From Fragilariopsis cylindrus CCMP1102 (taxonomy: Eukaryota > Bacillariophyta > Bacillariophyceae > Bacillariales > Bacillariaceae), in assembly GCA_900095095.1 (NCBI GenBank), contig FMBT01000428.1:1-64000 (forward strand): 64,000 nt of DNA, in the 5' to 3' direction. Positions 16,845-62,541 of this stretch are shown piece by piece. Below the pieces are notes generated by a model. It saw only the letters and a program-made list of their open reading frames with translations, searched no databases and was not told the origin of the DNA. The translations under genes and the position numbers were made by a program. How positions within the stretch are numbered: position 1 is the first letter of the stretch; each line of letters begins with the position of its first letter.

Positions 16845-18477
16845 ATGGTGCAACCTTTAGCTAAGTTCGGTGATTTAGAAACACGATTATTCATTAATAA
16901 TGAATTTGTTAATTCTATTTCTGGTAGAACCTTCCCTACTATTAATCCAGCAACAGAAGAGACCATTTGTGAAGTCCAAGAAGCTGATGCAGCTGATGTT
17001 GATCTATCTGTTAAGGCTGCCATTGATGCATTCAAACTAGGCTCACCATGGAGATCAATGGCAGCATCCGAACGTGGAAAACTTTTATGGAAGTTAGCAG
17101 ATCTAATAGAAAGGGATGCAAAGTATCTTGAGGAATTAGAAGCACTTGATAATGGTAAACCACTCGGTAGAGATGGACAATACGGAACTGCTGTTGATGT
17201 TGGTCTTACTATAGCCATTTATCGTTATGCATCAGGATGGTGTGATAAGATTGCAGGTGATACGATTCCTGTTGATGGGAATACATTATGTTATACACGT
17301 AAGGAACCGATTGGAGTCTGTGGTGCAATCATACCATGGAATTTTCCATTACTGATGCAGTCATGGAAATTAGCACCAGCACTTGCTGCTGGATGCACAA
17401 TGGTACTGAAATCATCTGAAAAGACTCCATTAACAGCATTGCACACATCAAAGTTAATAGCTGAAGCTGGATTTCCTCCCGGTGTTGTTAATACATTAAG
17501 TGGATTCGGTCCAACTGCTGGTGAAGCACTTGTGAAACATCCTGGAGTGCATAAACTTGGTAAGCTTCGTTCCTATGTCTCCCGTGTTACGATCTCTAAG
17601 TACAGAGTGTTGTGTCGCTTCGCTTTTTCTAATTTAGTTATTTCTTTCGCTCATCGCTCATTTTACCTTCCCCTCTGAATTGAATGACGAAATATTCGCT
17701 TCATTAGCTTTTACTGGCTCCAGTTTAACGGGAACAAAGATTGTTCAGATGGCAAAATTGAAACGGGTCACATTAGAATTGGGAGGCAAATCACCTGTTA
17801 TTGTTTGTGACGATGCTAACTTAGATGTTGCAGTTGGTGCATGTCACGTTGGACTGTTTTTAAATCAAGGTCAATGCTGTTGTGCAGGATCAAGAATTTA
17901 TGTTCAGGATACTATTTACGACAAATTCGTTGAAAAGGCTGTTGAAAAAGCCAAGCAAATGAAGATCGGTGCATACAATCAACCAGAAGTTGAACATGGA
18001 CCACAAGTTGATGAACTTCAATTTGATCGTGTTATGGGCTACATCCAAAAGGGTAAAGATGAAGGTGCAACAGTTTCGCTTGGAGGTGCCCGATATGGCA
18101 CAAAGGGATATTTTATTCAACCAACAATTTTTACTGATGTGAATGATGAAATGACTGTTGCCAAGGAAGAAATTTTTGGTCCTGTGATGTCAATTATGAA
18201 ATTTTCGACCGATGAAGAAGTTGTTGAACGTGCTAATGGATCATGTTTTGGGTTAGGTGCTGGTATTATGAGTGAAAATATCGGCCGTGCTATTGGATTA
18301 GCACATCAGATCCGTGCCGGGTCGGTATGGATTAATACTTATGATGACTTTAGTGTCCAAGCACCGTTTGGTGGTTACAAGGATAGTGGTCACGGTCGTG
18401 AAAAGGGCAAGGAAATGTTAGACAACTACCTGCAAACCAAATGTGTTTTTGTTCCATTACAGGGACCAAAATGCTAG
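16845..18477 (+). CDS. aldehyde dehydrogenase (NAD(P)+ dependent)
   Basis: Two exons, 16845-17559 and 17708-18477, give 494 residues, a normal ALDH length. The intron splits the alanine codon of KL-A-FTGS, so LAFTGS is rebuilt in phase. Hallmarks: FINNEFVNS near the start, [10 protein letters not shown], the catalytic glutamate in [10 protein letters not shown], the catalytic cysteine in [11 protein letters not shown] and EEIFGPV in the third quarter. It oxidises aldehydes to acids. The class resembles ALDH1/2 (retinal or acetaldehyde type). No targeting peptide is evident before the folded domain, so it is likely cytosolic, unlike mitochondrial ALDH2. Intact, which makes it a useful contrast with the damaged frames on either side. 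Confidence 0.92.
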
Positions 18478-19227: not shown

Positions 19228-21770
19228 GCGAGAAAAGTTGTGATCGGCATTGATGGAGGAACTGAATCTATCAGAGCATGTTGCTTTGACGCCGAAACAG
19301 GTCATGTCATAGGAAAGCCGTGTGCGGCACCATATAAAACATACCACCAATATCCTGGCTGGGCAGAGCAAGACCCTAACGATTGGTACGAATGCATGGG
19401 AAGATCAGTCCGAGGTGCTGTAGACTCTTTATCGCAACACGACGAAATAATGGTAGTTACGATATATGCTGTGTATGCGTGGATACAACATGCTGTTCCG
19501 TCGTCGCATTAGACAAGAACAACAACCCATTAAGAAAATGTCTCCTGTGGATGGATCAACGATCTTCTTCTCAAACAGAACAAATAATGGAAAAATGCAA
19601 AGGTGATCCTGCGCTTCAGGTCAATTGCGGGGGGGCTGGTCCAATATCTGCTGAATGGATGACTCCAAAAGCATTATGGATACGTCAAAATGAACCTCAA
19701 ATATGGGAAGAAGCGAAGACGATTTGTGAATACCAAGACTATATCAATTATAAACTTACAAACATAATGTGCGCCTCTTCTTGTAACGCTGCGTCTCGGT
19801 GGCACTTTGATGGAGAAGAATGTTTAGAAGAATCGACTCCTGAAAATCCGTTCCCAGGAAGGCCAGTATCGATGTGGGAAAAATTGGGCATTCCTGAGTT
19901 GGCTGAAAAACTTCCATTGAAGTATATTCATATGGGAGGCCTCGTTGGGAGATTGACAGAGGAAGCTGCTAGACATTTAAATTTACGTGTAGGGACAAAA
20001 GTAGCTCAAGGAGGTCCTGATGCGTTCGTCGGGATGGTAGGTCTTGGGTGCATCAACCCTGGACAATTGTGTCTAATCACGGGATCATCTCATTTGCATT
20101 GCGTCGTTACTTCTACTCCAGCTACCGCTCCAGGCATTTGGGGCGCTTATAAAGGTGCTCCTTTGCCGGGAATTTGCTTTGCAGAGGGAGGGCAGGTACG
20201 AAACACAAATAATTTTCAATTTCAGTTCTTATTTTTCATTCTCTTCTGTTCTCACATTATGTATCATACATACTTCTGTTAGTCGTCAACCGGTAGTATC
20301 ATTCGATGGTAGGTTACAAATTTACAATACAAAAAAATCAAGTCTCGTTTTCATATGATTTTTTCTTCTTTCTCGTTTTCTCACATCATTATATTATAAC
20401 ATCACAAAAAACCTTCCTACCTCGCAGGGCACGGAACATTCTTGGTGAAAGTGAAAGAGAGTACAAGGAATTTGACGAAGAGGCCTCTAAATATCACCAG
20501 GATGCGATGGTCTTGTTGCCTTAGAAACCTTCCAGGGTAGTCGGACTCCTGTGACTGATCCACTCCAGCGTGGGCTTTACTTGGTCTCACACTTGCACAC
20601 ACTCGTGCACACATATGGCGAGCCTTAATGGAATCTGTCTGCTTCGGAACACGATCATGCTTGGAGGGGCTAGAAAAGGCAGGTCATGGGTGTGACGAGA
20701 TTGTTATCGCGGGGGGTGCAACGAGAAGCGACTTATGGCTTCAAATGCACGCAGATGTAACGGGAAAGCCGGTAGTCGTTTGCGAATTTATAGATGCCCC
20801 ACTATTGGGATGCGCCATTCTAGCGAGTGTTAATGCTGGTGTTCACGAGACAGTCAACGATGCCGTCAATAACATGGTCAGAAAAGCAAAGCGTATTAAG
20901 CCTTCCGAAGTATCCTCGAAAACTTACGATGAACTATATACTCGTCTTTATAGCGGATTAGGGAGTGCAACGAGACCTATTCATCATGCTATTGCTGCTT
21001 TTAGTAGAGGCGGTCATATTTCAGCCATACGTAGTGCTCTCGACGACGAAAGTAAAAATACAAGACTAGAAGTTCCAGTACCATGATCGATGTGGATTCC
21101 CAACAATATCCCCTTCACTTCTTGCCTCTGACTGGTCTAACATTCGAGGGGAAGTACAGCGCTGTATAGACGCGGGATGTTCCCGGCTACATATAGATAT
21201 CTTTGATGGAGTCTTTCTGGACTCTCCACACGCCTTAACATTCGGTCCACAGATGGTTGACGCAATTCGAAGATGTTCGGATGATACTATATTAGATCTA
21301 CATATATGTGTTGATCGTCCTGCACGGTACATCCAAGCGATGAAAGAAGCTGGTGGTAACACATTTATATTTCAATGGGAGGCTGTAAAAGATGCAAGGG
21401 AACCCTTGAAAGCAGCTCTCGAGATTGCCAGCGAAGTGGTGAAGTCAGGTATGTTATGCGGAATTTCTATCAATCCTCTACAAGTGTTGAGGAGATCTAC
21501 CCTATTTTGAATTCTGGTTTGATCGCTGTCGTTGATGTTCTTGCTGTAGAACCTGGATTTGGAGGGCAAACTTTCCAAGATAGCGCTATTGAAAAGATAG
21601 AAACATTATCTCAATTCCGGGGAAATTCTCCTGTAGAAAATCACTTTAAGATAATGGTGGATGGTGGTATCAATAAAGACACTGCCGAGAGAGTAACTGC
21701 CGCAGATATATTGGTCGCTGGAACTTTTTATTCAAACATCCTGACCTACGAGACGGTATTGCAAAAATGA
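19070..21770 (+). CDS. FGGY sugar kinase joined to ribulose-phosphate 3-epimerase
   Basis: The N-terminus (ATG at 19070) is a signal peptide (PPLFLTLLVSLLMLL, then EVHA) and a serine run. It is followed by an FGGY kinase: VVIGIDGGTESIR, CVDTTCCSVVALD, GGPDAFVGMVGLG, ITGSSHLH, EGGQSSTGS and GLTLAHTRAHIWRA. The best-known relatives phosphorylate D-ribulose. The epimerase starts within about 30 bp of the kinase end: SLLASDWSNIRGEVQR, HIDIFDGVFLD, DVLAVEPGFGGQ and MVDGGI, a full RPE fold. Introns lie at 20196-20282 and 20309-20427, leaving a 26-nt exon between them. The reading needs about seven single missing bases (near 19151, 19470, 20504, 20574, 21083, 21110 and 21476). With seven added the whole locus is one multiple of three, which favours a fused protein over two genes. 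Confidence 0.75.
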
Positions 21771-22082: not shown

Positions 22083-23767
22083 CTAGTACTCTTCGCCGAG
22101 TTCTTCTGGTTCACCGCTATCAGCTCCAACTTCCTCACTGTATGAATAGTAATAATAATAATAATAAAGCAGGAAAAATGATGACGGAGTAAAAGTTTAA
22201 AATGAGTGAGAAAAAAAAGACTTCAAGATTAAAAAACTGCATGGATGATTACCACGTATATATACTTACTAATCTTTCTCTAATGCTGCGAGATCTTCAC
22301 GCGCTTCGGAGAATTCACCTTCTTCCATACCTTCTCCAACATACCAATGGACGAATGCACGCTTGGCGTACATAAGATCAAACTTATGGTCAATACGGGA
22401 AAGAGCTTCAGCGATTGCTGTTGTATTTGCAACCATACAAACCGCACGCTTGACTTCAGCCAAATCACCTCCAGGTACATTCTTAGGAGGTTCGTAGTTA
22501 ATACCACACTTGAATCCGGTTGGGCACCAATCAACGAATTGGATTGTACGCTTGGTCTTGATGGTGGCAACAGCAGCATTGACATCCTTAGGAACAACAT
22601 CACCACGGTACATAAGGCAACATGCCATGTACTTACCATGACGAGGATCACACTTCGTCATCATGTTTGTTGGTTCGAATACGGTACTAGTGATTTCAGC
22701 AACCGAAAGGGATTCATGGAAGGCCTTGTCAGCACTGATAACAGGAGCATACGAAGTCAACATAAAATGAATACGTGGATATGGGACCAAGTTCGTTTGG
22801 AATTCAGTAACATCAACATTCAATGCACCATCGAAACGAAGGGATGCGGTCAACGAACTAATAACCTGAGCAATCAAACGATTCAAGTTGGTGTAGGTTG
22901 GTTTTTGAATATCAAGATGACGACGACAGACATCGTACAAAGCCTCATTGTCCAAACAGAAGGTACAATCGGTATGTTCCAACAAAGCATGTGTCGACAA
23001 GACAGAGTTGTACGGTTCAACTACGGCTGTTGAAACTTGAGGACTTGGTGATACCGCAAATGACAACTTCGATTTACGACCATAATCGACAGAAAGACGT
23101 TCCAATAAAAGAGAACCAAGACCGGATCCGGTACCACCACCAGTTGCGTGGAAGACCAGGAAACCTTGTAGACCGGTACAGTTATCAGCAAGTTTACGGA
23201 TACGATCTAAGACTTGATCCACAATTTCCTTTCCGATAGTGTAATGACCGCGTGCGTAGTTATTAGCAGCATCTTCCTTTCCAGAAATGATTTGTTCCGG
23301 ATGATAAAGTTTGGAGTACTTTCCAGTACGGACCTCGTCACAACAGTTGGTTCTAAATCAACAAGACAGCACGGGGGACGTGCTTTCCAGAGGAAGTTTC
23401 ACTGAAGAAAGTGTTGAAGGAATCATCAGCAGCACCATTGGTTGTGCCATCGGTTGGCATATCACCATTCGAATCAATACCATGCTCTAAACAATAGAGT
23501 TCCCAACAGTTGTTACCAACTTGGATACCGGCCTGACCGAGATGGATTGAGATACATTCTGTTATCCAAGAAGAAAAAGAAAGTGGTTGGAACGAAAGGA
23601 AAAAATCAATATGAGTTGACAGTGATATTAATAACGACCACGAAAACGAATAAATAAAGAATATCAAGTCATAATACACCCACTATCTACATTTTCGGAA
23701 ACCAAACAATCTCACGGTACCCGTAATCTCCTATCAACACAACGATTGTATATTACTTACCACGCAT
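22083..23767 (-). CDS. alpha-tubulin
   Basis: Three exons on the minus strand: 23767-23761 (only ATGCGTG), 23558-22270 and 22137-22083. The tiny first exon splices to read [17 protein letters not shown], a common tubulin intron position. The signature [21 protein letters not shown] and the terminal ...GEEY (a substrate for detyrosination) fix the identity. Residue 40 is Gly, not the Lys that is acetylated in ciliated species. Two apparent one-base losses sit close together, near 23358 (LLDLEP) and 23340 (TVVDEV). Adding two bases gives exactly 450 residues, the family's standard length. An essential, near-invariant gene broken twice in 20 bp points to sequence error, or else this is a spare dead copy. 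Confidence 0.93.
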
Positions 23768-48470: not shown

Positions 48471-50545
48471 TTAGTATACTTCGACGTGCCATTGCTTTGC
48501 CTTTTTCAGTCCCTTGAGCCATTCATCGTAGTTAAGACCTTTCTTCTCAGCGACACCCTTGAGCATGTCTTGGATTCCAGGCATCATTCCCTTCAAACCA
48601 CAGAAGTAGATGTGGGCACCGCTCTCGAGCTTGTTGAAGACCTCATCAGCATATTCTTCAACCTTATCTTGGATGTACATTTTCCCTCCTTTAGTATTAT
48701 TTTGTTCACGAGAAAGAGCATAGTCAATACGAAGATTTTCTGGGAACCTTGTCTTCGCCTCTTGGAATTCATCATCGTACAAAAGAGCATCGCTATTGGC
48801 AACACCTAAGAACAACCATGCCTCCCCCTTATAGGCACGGGCAGCAGGGGTATCTTCATTAAAGAGACGACGAATGAATCCACGGTAAGGAGCAATACCC
48901 GTTCCGGTAGCAACCATGATATAGTTGGTGGAAGGGTCCTCTTCAGGCATAAGCATTACCTTTCCAGCAGGTCCAGTCATTACAACATCATCACCGGGTT
49001 GAGTATCACAGAGAAAGTTCGAGCAAATACCCTTCTTGGCTGGGTCGTCAGCTTTAAGTTCGTCATCCCAGTATGTAGCACGACGGACGCACAAGGATCC
49101 GGTCTTACCAGTCATATCATCACCATATCGGGAGGAGGCAATAGAATAAAGACGGACGGAATGTGGTTTACCATCCTTTTCACGGGTACCTGGAGGAATC
49201 ACACCCCATGATTGTCCCTCCCAATAAGGGAAGTCACCTTTGTGATCAACAATGATATGACAAGTCTCACCGGTGGCCTTTGGTCCTACAATACGCTTTG
49301 TTGAAACAACCTTTCCAGTGAAGGGAGCCTTGTTTTTGTATACATTGACAGGAACACTCGATTGGTCGTAATATGGTGTGGCTTCCAAGAACTCTTGCGT
49401 CGGCGTCGATGATTTCTTGAATAGTACCTCATTTGCCGCAAATGCAATCAACACTGAAATAGCAATCAGTCCTCCAGTTCTCCCGGCAAGCGTTAAGGCG
49501 GTCATAATCAATCCGGCAGAAACCACACCAGCAAAGATGGAGGACAAAGCAAAGAGGGTTGGCATACCTAATAAAAATGATCCCATCGCCCCAGTCCAAG
49601 CACCTGTTCCGGGTAGAGGAATACCAACGAAGGCTGCCAATGAAACCCATTGCTTTTCTAGGGAACCCACACCTAATCCAGCGGCCTTCTTCTCTGCACG
49701 ATTTAAGATAGGACTCATAAGTTTTTTCAATGATGGATTTTTCAATAGAAACAGAAGCGGAACAATAGGGATCATATTTCCGATGACACAAGTTAAAAGT
49801 ACTTGTTGGATCGGTAATCCCATCCATACACCAACTGGGATAGCTCCACGAAGTTCTACAACCGGCATCGCAGAAATTGTAGCAAGAACAGCCCATTTTG
49901 GTAAACCAAAGCTCATGAAGAAATTGGCAATCTTTTGTCCTGTATGCAAATGTTCTACTGTTTCCACCACTGCCTTTTTCGCAGCAAACGCAGGACTAGT
50001 AAGTAATGACAAAGTTACGAGAGCCATCGCCGACGTTTTCAAGAATTTGGACATTGACAACGTTTTTGATTTTGCGTTCGCACGTTCGTTGTTATTGACA
50101 ACACCATTGTTGTTGTTAGAATTACGACCAAGCACATTTCCCAACGAAGTTAAGGATAGATTCAAACTTGTTGTGGTGGAAAGGGTGTTCGTTACTCTAC
50201 TAGAAAACTGCAGATGGTTGGGAGCGTTATTTGCTCTACGTGTCGTTAAATTTATTTTTCATTATATCGTCATCATTAGAAGAAGAAAAATGACACATGG
50301 AATGGATACAGGGATATTGAATTTTGAATACATATAATTAGTAAGTTCACAGCTTTTGGATTGGCTAGCATTGACATTACAGAGATACAAATATACGAAT
50401 ATATATTATTTATGTCACCGGATAATTAATTAATTGCTCACCTAATGATCGGCGTCGACTGAAATGCCAATGCAGGTCTGCTGCTGCAGTAGACGGCAAC
50501 AGTTAGTAAAAAGCACGAAAGCATATGCTTCGTTGTCATCGTCAT
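48471..50545 (-). CDS. PETH: plastid ferredoxin-NADP+ reductase fused to an N-terminal membrane domain
   Basis: Two exons, 50545-50442 and 50235-48471, give 622 residues with no frame break. Exon 1 encodes a signal peptide ending [10 protein letters not shown], the plastid bipartite pattern; it splices AG|A-GCA to a Ser/Asn-rich transit region (36-95). At about 98-119, [22 protein letters not shown] looks like a second, thylakoid-type signal. At about 148-290 is a membrane domain with [29 protein letters not shown] and [16 protein letters not shown], which I place in the small multidrug export family (PF06695). From about 328 on is a complete [11 protein letters not shown] (FAD), [23 protein letters not shown] (NADP), and the terminal WHVEVY. 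FNR makes NADPH from reduced ferredoxin. The fusion would tie it to the thylakoid. Confidence 0.93.
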
Positions 50546-52138: not shown

Positions 52139-54106
52139 TTAACTTCTATAGTCAGCGTTGATAACAACGTACTCTTTCGTAAGGTCACTTCCCAGTACAC
52201 TGACATCGGTAAAGTCGGGATTTTCCAAACCAAAATCAACTCCGATTTCAACAAATCGCTGATGCGGAGGATAGTTCGATTCTTCGCTATACGCGGCACT
52301 TTCCATGTGCTGACTCAATTCCTTTTCAACAGCATCTCCTTCCAAAACAAACTTGCCGTCGGAAAAGATACAACGACCACCAAGCGTCAATGACATTTTA
52401 GAAGTATCCGAATCTGGCATGTGTTTACCCATGTACGAACCAATAGCAGCAGCCAATCGGCCCGTATTGGGATCGTTTCCAGCTACTGCGCATTTGAAAA
52501 GAGGCGAATTGACAATGTGGCGACCCAAAAATCGAGCGTCTCTTTTTGTACCTGAAAAGTTACTAATTACTACACGCATAACGTGGGATGTACCTTCACC
52601 GTTACGAACAATATCGGAAGCTAAACCCTTGCTAACATGCATCAAGGCCGATTTGAACTCATCATAGTCGACATCACCCGAGACCTGGTTTGATGCAAGA
52701 CAAACGACAGTATCAGACGTAGATTCATCTCCGTCGACCGACAGACAATTGAATGTTTCGTCGACAACGCTACTTAGCATAGATTGGAGTTTATCCTTTG
52801 GAACAGTCGCATCGGTCAAAATATATGACAACATAGTAGCCATATTCGGTTCTGTATCAAAAATGATTGCAAGGGATAGAAATGTGAAGATAATCATTAT
52901 TTTGTTGTCGTGAGGATAAAGCACATCATGGGCTAGCAATGTGTTTGTCATTAATGAAAAACCTATAGACTCTAAACAATAGAAAAGAAGACACGTAGAT
53001 ACACTTACCGATCATACCGGCACCCTTTGCAATTCCAACAACTCTAGCTCCGTTAGAGAGAGTGATACTTCTAACCTTCGGAAAGCGATCAGTTGTCATA
53101 ATAGCCTCGGCAGCATTCATTATAGAATCTGTTTGCATGTTCTTAACTGCCTCCGGAGCGATATCTTCCGCTAGTTCCTTAGCTGGTAAACGCCATCCGA
53201 TAACACCGGTACTGGAAGGTAATACTAATGAAGATGAATCAAGATTTAATGCGTTTGCAACAGCCTCGCATACCAACTCGGCATCAGCTTCACCGTCACC
53301 ACCGGAACAAACATTGGAAACTTTATTATTAATAACAATAGCTTCGATTGGACCACCAGCTGCCAAACGCTTACGACCCACTTTGATGGGAGCTCCAGGG
53401 AACTATTTTTTGTTTAGTTTTGGTAGAAAGGGTGAAAAGAAAAAGAAGAGGATAAGGAAGATGATTAGAAGAAATGAAAGGTGTAAGATATAATTTTACT
53501 TCATCATAGGAAAGAGAAAAGAAAACAAACGAAAATTTCTTAAAAATACAACAAATATTATCTCAGAATAAGATCTAAAACTAGCTTTATTCACTTGTAC
53601 GATTGCTGTTGGTGTCTCTTCTTTCATGACTGAATTTTTCCTGATTGATTTCATGATCTCATCTCTTTCTTATCATATCTTATATTTAATCTTACCTTAT
53701 TTGATGTAAAGCATGCAGCCCAACTATCAGTGGGACCATCTGTTAATTTTATAACAGTTGCACGGATTTTCAATTCACCCAAACTAGGCGCCTCTACTGA
53801 AATAAATGTCCCATCAGATGTACCGGTCGCAAATCCTTTGGGCAAATCACTAACAGTTTTCATATATGCTAAATATTCTTCATCAGTTGCAAATTCTGGT
53901 AACGTTTCAGGTGTATCGGAGGATACCATCGTAGCTGATCGGCTACTACTGCTACTACTGCTACTAGCACTTTTACTGATCATCGACCGTTGTTGTTGTA
54001 ATTGACGAGTATTAGCAGTAAATGCTGATGATTGCCCACCGTGACGGGCAATGCATATCACCACCGAAAGGATGAAAAGTAAGGATGTTGATGTAGACAA
54101 GACCAT
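52139..54106 (-). CDS. argJ: plastid glutamate N-acetyltransferase / amino-acid N-acetyltransferase (ArgJ)
   Basis: Transfers acetyl from N-acetylornithine to glutamate in arginine synthesis. Three exons, 54106-53696, 53402-53009 and 52851-52139, give 505 residues with no frame break. The presequence MVLSTSTSLLFILSVVICIA ends with SSA|FTANTR (plastid type). Then come GFATGTSDGTF, CFTSNKFPGAP across intron 1, STGVIGWRLP, GIAKGAGMI-EPNMATML across intron 2 (the Thr in MATML is the self-cleavage nucleophile that makes alpha and beta chains), and the closing VVINADYRS. A normal enzyme length after the presequence. The ATG at 54106 is chosen because upstream residues lack signal character and this one starts the hydrophobic stretch. 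Confidence 0.95.
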
Positions 54107-54926
54107 TTTTGTAGTTGGAAATAATAGGATTTGTTTGTGAAAGTTTGAGAATACCCCTCGAAGCAAATTATGATAATCGACTCAATGAAATATCTTAAAA
54201 ATTATGAACTCGATGTGTCTTTGATGAACAATCTCAGTTACTTTGCTGTTGTACGGTATTTGAATGGAACAAGTACAGTATTTCCAGAATATGAATGCTG
54301 TTACTTGTTACCGGTATGATGTGTGAGGGCGGTGTATTTTCAATCAAGCAATAATCAGATGTCATGTGTCTGTTTGCTGGAAGATCGCGAACGAAGTTTA
54401 GGATTTTCATCGCGCCCATCACCATCGATCGTCGTCACATGACGTGCATTTTCCTGAAGATATGTGTATACCATAATACCATGATCAGTATATTAATCAT
54501 ATGTACGATAGATATCAATTGGATCGTATCTAGCAACGCAACGCACTTTTTCTTCGGACGGACAGACAAAAGAACAAATCTTGTAATTGAACTTCTTCCA
54601 CTAAATTCTGCCCCGAACAAGGCGTCGTCCCGCGATGAGACAACGACAGCGATATCAAACAAAAAAATAAAAATAATCGAATCCCCCGCCCCAATCGATC
54701 GGCATGAGTGGAAACAAAACGTATGCGTGTTATTATTAGACACGCAAGAGTAAAGTTAAAAAAAAGTGCTAATAACTGCTGTATATCTTCTCGTTGATCA
54801 TTATTGACAGCTCAATTCCATTACATACACTGTACATATTATTTTATTCGTTCGACCTAAGTTATCTAAAACAATCGTAGCAGAATTGACAAGAATACAT
54901 CCATACACAAACAAAGAACATACAGT
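54107..54926. other. divergent promoter region
   Basis: 820 bp between argJ and thioredoxin. Overlapping frames on both strands at 54364-54753 show no domain or composition I trust. No supported gene. Confidence 0.45.
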
Positions 54927-57147: not shown

Positions 57148-58406
57148 ATGTCGAGCCATCAAATTCTAAATTATCTGTTTATCTTATTTTTTCATCTTGT
57201 TGGATCCAATTTTGTGGAAGGATGGTCACAACAATGCTCAACGACGATGGGCGTTCAGCGATGCTCTGACGGACGAGGGATTAGCAGTAGAATATCAGGA
57301 GTTAACGTACCGTTTACGAAGATTACTACAAGCACACATCATGGTAATAATATGATGTTATTTTCGATCTCAACAAACGATAAGGTTGGAATAGAAAAGG
57401 ACGTAATTGATGAGGATGATCAGGATGGCTCATCAACAGTTGAGGAATATCGTAATCCTGCCACAAAATTTCTTTCCGGGTTTATGCAAAAAGATGACTC
57501 GATGATGACCAAGTCCGATAATACTGACGATAGTAACGATCGTGATATAATTGATTTCCAAGCACCGAAAATTGTACCGTCGACATCACTGAAAACTCTA
57601 GCAGCTGCACTGGATTATGAACTCACTGAAAAAGAATGGTTTGTCTCGGGAGATGTAAATCCATCCTATTTTTCGGAAGATTTTGAATTTCAAGATCCGG
57701 ATGTCAAAGTTAGTAGTATTGAAGATTATAGTAAAGGTGTCCGGAAGATATTCAATCAATCTACTTCTCGTGCTGAGATCCTGTCAACTGTCATTAATGA
57801 TGAGGTTTCTACACTTGAAAGACCCGTCATTACCTGTACCTGGAGACTTTCGGGAGGTGTTAATATCGGATTTGGTCTTACTATTAAACCATACATAGTA
57901 TATACAGATTTTGCAATCGATCCAATATCGTCATTGATTATTCTTCAGGAAGATCGTTTCGGTCTTCCGTCTTGGGATATTTTGTTGAGGTGCGTTGTAT
58001 AATATATATACACTTTTGTGTGACTTATAACTAATTGTGTGGACTTTGTCTGTTTTGTTCGGGTTGATGGCATGGAATAAAAGCAACACCACATTATCAT
58101 ATTGGAATACCAACGTGTCATTTAATGTGGTACAAAAAAATGGCACCACAAAAAAAATTGTCTTGTTTTAACTTGGTTTCAATTATTTTTATTAATATTA
58201 TTTTCTCTTTCTCTCTTCGGGTGGGAATTCAAATTTATGTATTGGCAAGTGCTCTATTCCCTTTCGTAATTGGTAAAATCACAAAGCCACCGGCTCCTCC
58301 CGCTCCCAAGCGTAATTTAATCATGCCTAAAATTGCTCTTATTGGATCTTCACCGTCGATGAATGATTTCGGTGGAATATTTCAATCATTATTTGGAAAT
58401 CAATAA
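57148..58406 (+). CDS. NTF2-like (DUF2358-type) protein, probably plastid
   Basis: Two exons, 57148-57989 and 58250-58406, give 332 residues. A signal-peptide start (NYLFILFFHLVGSNFVEGW) is present, though without the classic A-F. After an acidic linker, residues 150-290 form the domain: LAAALDYELTEKEWFVSGD, YFSEDFEFQDPDVKVS, ITCTWRLSGGVNIGFGL and LIILQEDRFGLPSWDILL, then SALFPFVIGK across the intron. This is the DUF2358/SnoaL-like fold found in plant and algal plastid proteins of unknown function. The donor is GTGCGT, less usual, but the join LL-SALFPF is what the family predicts. The C-terminal part is Pro-rich and ends with MNDFGGIFQSLFGNQ. Confidence 0.75.
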
Positions 58407-61362: not shown

Positions 61363-62541
61363 TTATAGAGAATGATGCACTTCAATCATCCCTAGATCTA
61401 CCAGTATCTGATAAGCTTTCTCCTCCAAATCTGAAATGGCACCATATCGTGCAGCTAATAAAGCCTCATCCTTTTGTGACTTAGGTTGTTTTCTTGCTTG
61501 TACATATTTGGGATCACAAAGTGGAAGAATGTTGCTGCTGCGGTCTGTGTTGCTATTAATTCGTATTATTTCTGTTTTCTTGTTACTATTATCATTATCA
61601 TTATCATCGTCATTATCATTATCATTTTCATCAACATCATCATCTTGTTGGTTCATTATCTCCCTGCTAGTCCTATCCTTTTTCAGTAAAAACAAGGCCA
61701 TCCTAGTTACAGTGCTTCCGGCTATCACCCCTCCTACAGCTCCTATTACTTTACTCATATGATCGTTTTTACTATCATACTTGATATGTTGCGCCTCTTG
61801 TTCATCTTCGGTCGTCTCTGTCGTCAACATAGAAGAATCAGTACTAGTACTAGTAGTACTTTCTTCTTCTACGTAACTTCCCCCGGTAGCGAAAAAATTA
61901 TCACCATCACCTTCATCATCATTATATTGTAAGAAGTCTTTTTTGTGATCTGATTCTATCATCGTTGGTGTCTGTGATATCAGTGTTATAGTGGGAGTGA
62001 CTCGCATATTGTGTATTGTTGATGATGATGATGATGTGACTGTGACTGTATTATCTGTTTGTTGTTCTGCCATAACATGAGAAGGAAAAGATCCAAAGGC
62101 AATGATAGCCGCTGCAATAATAGAAATATATCTTTTCTTATTGGATAATAATTCTCCTATCATTTGTGATACTATCTTGACTACTTGTAGGGGCAATAAA
62201 GTCGTCGTTCTGGTTGCATATTCTGGGTCCATATGCTGTTGTTGTTCTTGTTGTCCTCTGTTGTAGTTGGAGCGAAATGAACGAAATAAACCCTCACCGA
62301 TAATATTATTATTGCTGTTGTGGCCAGAATATTCTACCATCAAGTAAGAATTGGTTGTAGGAAAAAGAAGATTATTATGATGTTCCGGGATGATTCCGAT
62401 TCTTGCTGCGGTAGTCGTAGGTGGCGGTGGGGATGAGGATGCGATGAATGCCTCGCATAATTCGATTGAGAATGCCAGCAGCATTGTTGAAACTAAACAT
62501 CTGACAGCGACCATACTTTTATTCATGTTGAATATCTTCAT
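61363..62541 (-). CDS. hypothetical plastid-targeted membrane protein
   Basis: 392 residues, one exon. The start MKIFNMNKSMVAVRCLVSTM reaches a signal-peptide end at ELCEA|FIASS (plastid pattern). Residues 70-100 hold VEYSGHNSNN, GEGLFRSFRSNYN. A hydrophobic stretch RYISIIAAAIIAFGSFPSHVMA (about 137-158) could be a membrane span or thylakoid signal ending VMA. A second one, VIGAVGGVIAGSTVTRMALFLL, lies at about 267-290. The middle and the following stretch are Thr/Ser and Asp/Asn low-complexity. The C-terminus is ordered (DEALLAARYGAISDLEEKAY, QILVDLGMIEVHHSL). No family recognised. Confidence 0.65.
   Translation of the reverse strand: MKIFNMNKSMVAVRCLVSTMLLAFSIELCEAFIASSSPPPPTTTAARIGIIPEHHNNLLFPTTNSYLMVEYSGHNSNNNIIGEGLFRSFRSNYNRGQQEQQQHMDPEYATRTTTLLPLQVVKIVSQMIGELLSNKKRYISIIAAAIIAFGSFPSHVMAEQQTDNTVTVTSSSSSTIHNMRVTPTITLISQTPTMIESDHKKDFLQYNDDEGDGDNFFATGGSYVEEESTTSTSTDSSMLTTETTEDEQEAQHIKYDSKNDHMSKVIGAVGGVIAGSTVTRMALFLLKKDRTSREIMNQQDDDVDENDNDNDDDNDNDNSNKKTEIIRINSNTDRSSNILPLCDPKYVQARKQPKSQKDEALLAARYGAISDLEEKAYQILVDLGMIEVHHSL

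Follow-up and report, generated by a model that had tools for sequence, protein, structure and literature searches.

The root-type ferredoxin-NADP reductase (FNR) of plants is a soluble, separate protein that mainly runs from NADPH to ferredoxin, and to our knowledge there has been little study of how algae with red-derived plastids keep their FNR in place. The location of FNR is relevant to whether photosystem I electrons are passed to NADPH or enter cyclic flow (PMC13322767). In vascular plants, FNR is held at thylakoid or envelope membranes by TROL and Tic62, described as separate FNR-binding proteins (PMC6953530, PMC13322767). In green and red algae, FNR is described as docking on photosystem I either unaided by an anchor of this kind or through transient contact (PMC13322767), so that tethering is no general need. 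Cyanobacterial PetH enzymes (NF058510, NF045929) carry an extra N-terminal domain, the CpcD phycobilisome linker, which places FNR at a membrane-bound structure. PF06695 (Sm_multidrug_ex), the family of “small multi-drug export” proteins, has been grouped with the DedA superfamily by Mesdaghi et al. (PMC7818093) and in a review, which also describes lipid scrambling by the superfamily members TMEM41B and VMP1 (PMC9950537). Arabidopsis At2g02590 has been listed among plastid transporters as a putative small multi-drug export protein (PMC2246286); its table line names no FNR, and its likeness to the protein described here is one of name.

Here, we analyzed a window of 64,000 nucleotides of Fragilariopsis cylindrus CCMP1102 (contig FMBT01000428.1, positions 1 to 64,000). 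An earlier note on this DNA had reported, at positions 48471-50545, a PF06695-like membrane domain and a full FNR ending in WHVEVY in one chain. This observation holds: a Pfam search and a full-length FNR alignment confirm a real gene that joins the two domains, and the coordinates are right. The gene and each of its features given below lie on the minus strand, which the note had omitted. Because FNR and membrane domain are covalently linked in this chain, the protein differs, by description, from the separate binding proteins TROL and Tic62.

The whole gene (48471..50545) is predicted to encode a precursor of 622 residues in two exons; its ATG lies at 50545 and its stop codon at 48471-48473. 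Exon 1 (50442..50545) would encode 34 residues, comprising the start codon, the ER signal peptide and the start of the transit peptide, and exon 2 (48471..50235) everything else, from the remainder of the targeting region through the membrane domain to FNR. The predicted 206-nt intron between them (50236..50441; GTGAGC ... ACGTAG) has a consensus donor, AG|GTGAGC at 50441, and the acceptor ACGTAG ending at 50236, and keeps the frame; it is one of 14 in-frame GT/AG solutions, picked for its consensus donor as the best by eye. From 50235 to the stop codon the frame contains no stop, and the chance of a 587-codon open frame is about 4e-18 at the given base composition. The “one long unbroken frame” described earlier is correct for the membrane domain and FNR, which lie in a single stop-free exon and in the same frame, and needs amending for the targeting region, which the predicted intron splits at a distance from the domain junction. 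Codon-position composition is similar in the two domains, and no presequence is found at their junction. In the numbering of the 564-residue ORF, used here for residues throughout (58 is added for the precursor), there is no Met between residue 221, within the membrane domain, and residue 351, beyond the RLYSIAS motif at 338; a start at Met 201 or 221 would retain the last membrane helix and lose the presequence. We therefore rejected the production of a soluble FNR from an internal ATG, since no Met permits an intact one. A 319-residue open frame on the plus strand (49378-50337), antisense to the membrane domain and the targeting region, most likely just mirrors the coding strand.

By full-length alignment and motifs, the C-terminal part (48474..49361) is a complete plant-type FNR, of the root type by score. 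It contains RLYSIAS, CSNFL, GTGIAP, CGLKGM and a C-terminal VEVY, which we take to be the FAD and NADP motifs and the C-terminal aromatic end of FNR. NAD_binding_1 is matched in Pfam at 1.5e-24, and FAD_binding_6 stays below the Pfam cut-off (E 0.14, 12.9 bits vs 21.1); the FAD half is nevertheless secured, because residues 269-564 align over their full length to solved FNRs, with no part missing and E-values down to 5e-135. The plant root-type FNR of PDB entry 1jb9 shares 189 of 295 residues (64%) as well as the motifs and the WHVEVY end, and differs in having no membrane domain. The top nine distinct solved sequences, among them 1jb9, 3lo8 and others that we take to be maize root FNR, score 451.7-454.7 bits; three are named “chloroplastic”, and the isoform is not stated for the nine. 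The spinach enzyme 1fnb (organism after PMC5723097) reaches 302.5 bits, the named leaf isozyme 3mhp 300.8 bits and the remaining solved FNRs at most 302 bits. Judged by this gap of about 150 bits among solved structures, none of which is an algal FNR, the FNR head appears nearer to the root type than to leaf FNR, and it may run either in linear flow beside photosystem I or in the direction from NADPH to ferredoxin.

The cyanobacterial PetH models of NCBIfam match only from profile position 108-112 on, far under their cut-offs of 600 and 635 bits; the match over residues 265-564 at 370 bits begins at position 112 of its model. A CpcD linker was accordingly rejected for this protein: the PetH models match only behind CpcD, and the N-terminal part is occupied by PF06695, so that the phycobilisome linker of PetH is replaced here by a predicted integral membrane domain.

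The PF06695 match (49506..49856; Pfam 5.2e-29, 101.7 bits against a cut-off of 30.7) spans ORF residues 104-220 and the complete profile (positions 1-121 of 121), which bears out the family assignment of the earlier note. AlphaFold2, run with a bacterial alignment, models the membrane part with a mean pLDDT of 86.4 as two successive sets of helix, hairpin and crossing helix, separated by a loop, and then a further helix. Along the chain, these correspond to a first predicted re-entrant hairpin with a 10-residue motif (49824..49898; AlphaFold2 helices 28-37 and 42-52, taken as re-entrant after PMC7818093), core membrane helix 1 (49746..49811; helices 57-69 and 72-78), a central loop (49662..49745), a second predicted re-entrant hairpin with an 11-residue motif (49572..49661; from the alignment and AlphaFold2), core membrane helix 2 (49479..49559; helix 141-167), an extra C-terminal membrane helix (49413..49469, residues 233-251; from AlphaFold2 and the alignment) and a 17-residue linker between that helix and FNR (49362..49412). 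A full-length model, with pLDDT in blocks of 24-58 over the linker and the FAD half and 42-88 thereafter, gave low confidence for much of FNR because its alignment contained no FNR relatives, and was left unused.

In order only, these helices match the inverted repeat of DedA (amphipathic helix, re-entrant loop, membrane helix) with one helix added; the same order is described for the DedA/VTT core (PMC7818093). Comparison by hhalign with ten DedA (PF09335) proteins, from 10 of 11 fetched loci (L094 being left out), gave a probability of 89.9 and an E-value of 1.7e-6 over 137 columns at 7% identity, which is moderate when taken alone. A Foldseek search of the PDB with the membrane model returned no usable match (best E 1.7), and a sequence search there gave no solved structure related to this domain at E-values up to 1. 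Taken with the published groupings, the profile match places PF06695 with the DedA/VTT superfamily and hence with relatives of lipid scramblases.

Relatives of the membrane domain were collected with an alignment (A1) of three Clostridia sequences as the query on the genome_contigs collection; because of this origin of A1, the abundance of Bacillota among the relatives says little on where the domain came from. At least 590 stretches were matched and 587 were confirmed, of which the best 80 were kept; the structure alignments comprised these 80 loci (A2) or 45 of them (A3), without L001-L003. Identity between the window domain and these best 80 bacterial relatives is 30-40%. All 20 columns that are invariant in the 80 relatives are kept in the window, as are 28 of the 33 columns conserved in at least 90% of them. 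Part of the second motif was fixed by the patterns used in the scan; ten of the 20 invariant columns lie outside these patterns, namely P39, E42, L43, R44, N68, P71, L114, V118, T129 and G130 (model numbering). The retention of all 20 invariant residues led us to reject a degenerate anchor; the membrane core is probably more than an inert one, and it probably still moves a lipid or a small molecule. The window protein resembles the bacterial PF06695 proteins in this complete domain and is set apart from them by its predicted plastid presequence, added helix and FNR head.

A fusion of the same kind was not found among these relatives. No FNR-like frame (at least 60 residues, E 1e-3) occurs at 83 PF06695 loci (the best 80 in genome_contigs and three on plasmids) with flanks read up to 3 kb, or 1.5 kb for the plasmid loci, and the longest frame holding the PF06695 domain there has 328 residues. 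Searches with the whole protein gave one pattern match in viral_contigs and 14 in genome_contigs, none of them confirmed; these two collections hold viruses and prokaryotes and say nothing on other algae. The FNR stretch around GMMPGIQ, put as two degenerate patterns, had no match in viral_contigs. Among plasmids, the membrane domain matched three records, and FNR matched 92 records with a best identity of 35.5%, these being of BoxA and sulfite reductase types. The control genomes included a PF06695 match in Synechococcus elongatus; in 12 PF06695-bearing genomes, the cyanobacterial PetH family gave weak matches in six and none over the cut-off.

The presequence is predicted to be of the plastid type, with an ER signal, a transit peptide and a lumen-type second signal. 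By eye, the ER signal peptide (50465..50545) has 27 residues and an ALA|FQ site with cleavage before F, which we take to be the diatom plastid pattern with its ASAFAP-like motif. The transit-peptide-like stretch of 67 residues (50058..50464), split by the intron, lacks Asp and has a single Glu, along with six Lys/Arg, 17 Ser/Thr and 15 Asn; the signal before F and this acid-poor stretch fit the diatom plastid pattern, as read by eye and from residue counts. A second signal of 24 residues (49983..50054), recognized by sequence and hydropathy, ends in SPAFA before AKK, where cleavage may be expected. Its hydropathy peak of 1.42 is barely above the threshold of 1.4, and we infer that it is of the kind directing proteins to the thylakoid lumen. 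If cut after SPAFA, the mature protein would have 503 residues and 54.9 kDa.

Resembling presequences were seen by eye in other ORFs of the window. A 392-residue ORF (61363-62541, minus strand) without a Pfam match combines a diatom-like presequence (LCEA|FIASS) with a further hydrophobic signal that ends in SHVMA, and its product is perhaps another lumen-directed plastid protein. A gene for ArgJ (ornithine/glutamate acetyltransferase), split into two or more pieces, lies at 52139-53381, perhaps extending to 54166, on the minus strand; the ORF upstream of it (53651-54166) has a signal-like start with SSAF, another at 57148-58002 (plus strand) has a signal-like start with VEGWSQQ, and both are without a Pfam match. 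An aldehyde dehydrogenase (16845-18477), an FGGY sugar kinase (19383-20282) and an alpha-tubulin (22269-23222) look, by eye, like ordinary nuclear neighbours. No RNA family at the gathering threshold and no tRNA was found in the window.

The central loop of the membrane domain carries a net charge of +5 by charge count, and all 80 bacterial relatives likewise have a positive loop (+3 to +10), so that by the positive-inside rule the loop would face the stroma. Provided that the two hairpins are re-entrant, the core should then start and finish on the lumen side, with the loop on the stromal side. With the C-terminus of the core in the lumen, FNR would also be lumenal, away from ferredoxin, unless one crossing were added. 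The extra helix, filled in only four of the 80 bacterial relatives (at least 12 of 19 columns) and lacking in 76, would provide this crossing and return FNR to the stroma; it is modelled with less confidence than the rest (pLDDT about 55-69). The second signal would likewise set the N-terminus in the lumen, and the signal and the extra helix would thus fit one picture.

We consider it likely that the product of this nuclear gene is an FNR built into a plastid membrane, with a stromal head and a DedA-type core. A PF06695/DedA-type core of two re-entrant hairpins and two crossing helices would have both ends in the lumen; the added helix would cross back, and the 17-residue linker would hold the FNR head at the stromal face. 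At this membrane surface the head would pass electrons between ferredoxin and NADP(H), and no TROL, Tic62 or other separate tether would be needed. A built-in tether with FNR on the stromal face of the thylakoid, rather than of the inner envelope, and with the chain left uncut, appears to be the plainest reading. The earlier proposal of a membrane-anchored FNR stands to the extent that the fused domain and the plastid-type presequence predict an integral form; the place next to photosystem I or in cyclic flow that it suggested would be one possibility. Its label of a “transporter-derived module” is better replaced by the DedA superfamily, in view of the profile match and the published placements (PMC7818093, PMC9950537).

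Alternatively, the fusion might be only a precursor, the linker of which is cut by a plastid protease, so that a soluble FNR is freed and the membrane domain works alone. In Thalassiosira pseudonana, the FNR B8CGL9 has been reported from soluble-protein gels of pH 4-7 and 3-11 (PMC5299434), and the Asterionella FNR has been found to associate with GAPDH and CP12 (PMC7992989). The computed pI of the FNR part alone, 6.3-6.5, lies within the pH 4-7 range and that of the mature fusion, 8.6, does not, so the T. pseudonana FNR is likely cut or separate; the extract was perhaps not membrane-free, since the table of that study also has a light-harvesting membrane protein (PMC5299434). However, no cleavage site is evident by eye, and a soluble paralogue would explain the same data, with two petH entries reported for Thalassiosira oceanica (PMC5570362). 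Diatoms may thus possess an additional, soluble FNR or cleave the fusion; for the gene described here, we regard release from a precursor as unlikely.

We give a similarly low probability to a membrane-bound isoform that runs from NADPH to ferredoxin and feeds ferredoxin-dependent enzymes, for example desaturases, nitrite reductase or pigment enzymes, with another FNR serving photosynthesis. The root-type score of the FNR head and the membership of the membrane domain in a lipid-handling superfamily would suit it, and diatom plastids are reported to be without an oxidative pentose phosphate pathway, which makes their NADPH supply in the dark unusual (PMC7992989). Yet in algae of the red lineage, resemblance to root FNR does not by itself imply the same use; the FNR of the red alga Gracilaria, which is without CpcD, has been described as nearer to the leaf type (PMC5723097). 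In Phaeodactylum tricornutum, PETH is reported as strongly down in darkness, which would fit a photosynthetic FNR if it is the orthologue (PMC3592843).

The two halves might be functionally linked. In the strongest form of this reading, which we think distinctly improbable, the protein would be a redox-linked lipid or solute carrier, in which the stromal FNR head senses or uses the state of ferredoxin or NADPH and drives or gates the DedA-type core; if true, the movement of lipids or metabolites at the plastid membrane would be tied directly to photosynthetic reducing power. An artefact of assembly or gene modelling (two adjacent genes or a chimeric contig) has in its favour that no relative of the whole protein was found in the viral and prokaryotic collections, but it is very unlikely given the single exon, common frame and similar codon-position composition of the two domains and the lack of both a junction presequence and a Met for a soluble FNR.

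The earlier note knew of no description of this fusion, and our literature search, which did not extend to protein databases or to the bulk of subscription papers, likewise found none for FNR with a PF06695 domain; the word “ferredoxin” is absent from the main text of the study of ochrophyte chimeric plastid proteins by Dorrell (2017). The fusion may already be visible in database annotation. As read from its sequence, a covalent, membrane-built FNR would be a new form of membrane-tethered FNR. It would offer a direct handle on the role of FNR location, as the membrane part could be cut or swapped and electron flow measured. In addition, the fusion would place PF06695 in a plastid context, as a member of a superfamily whose physiological function has been called poorly understood (PMC9950537).
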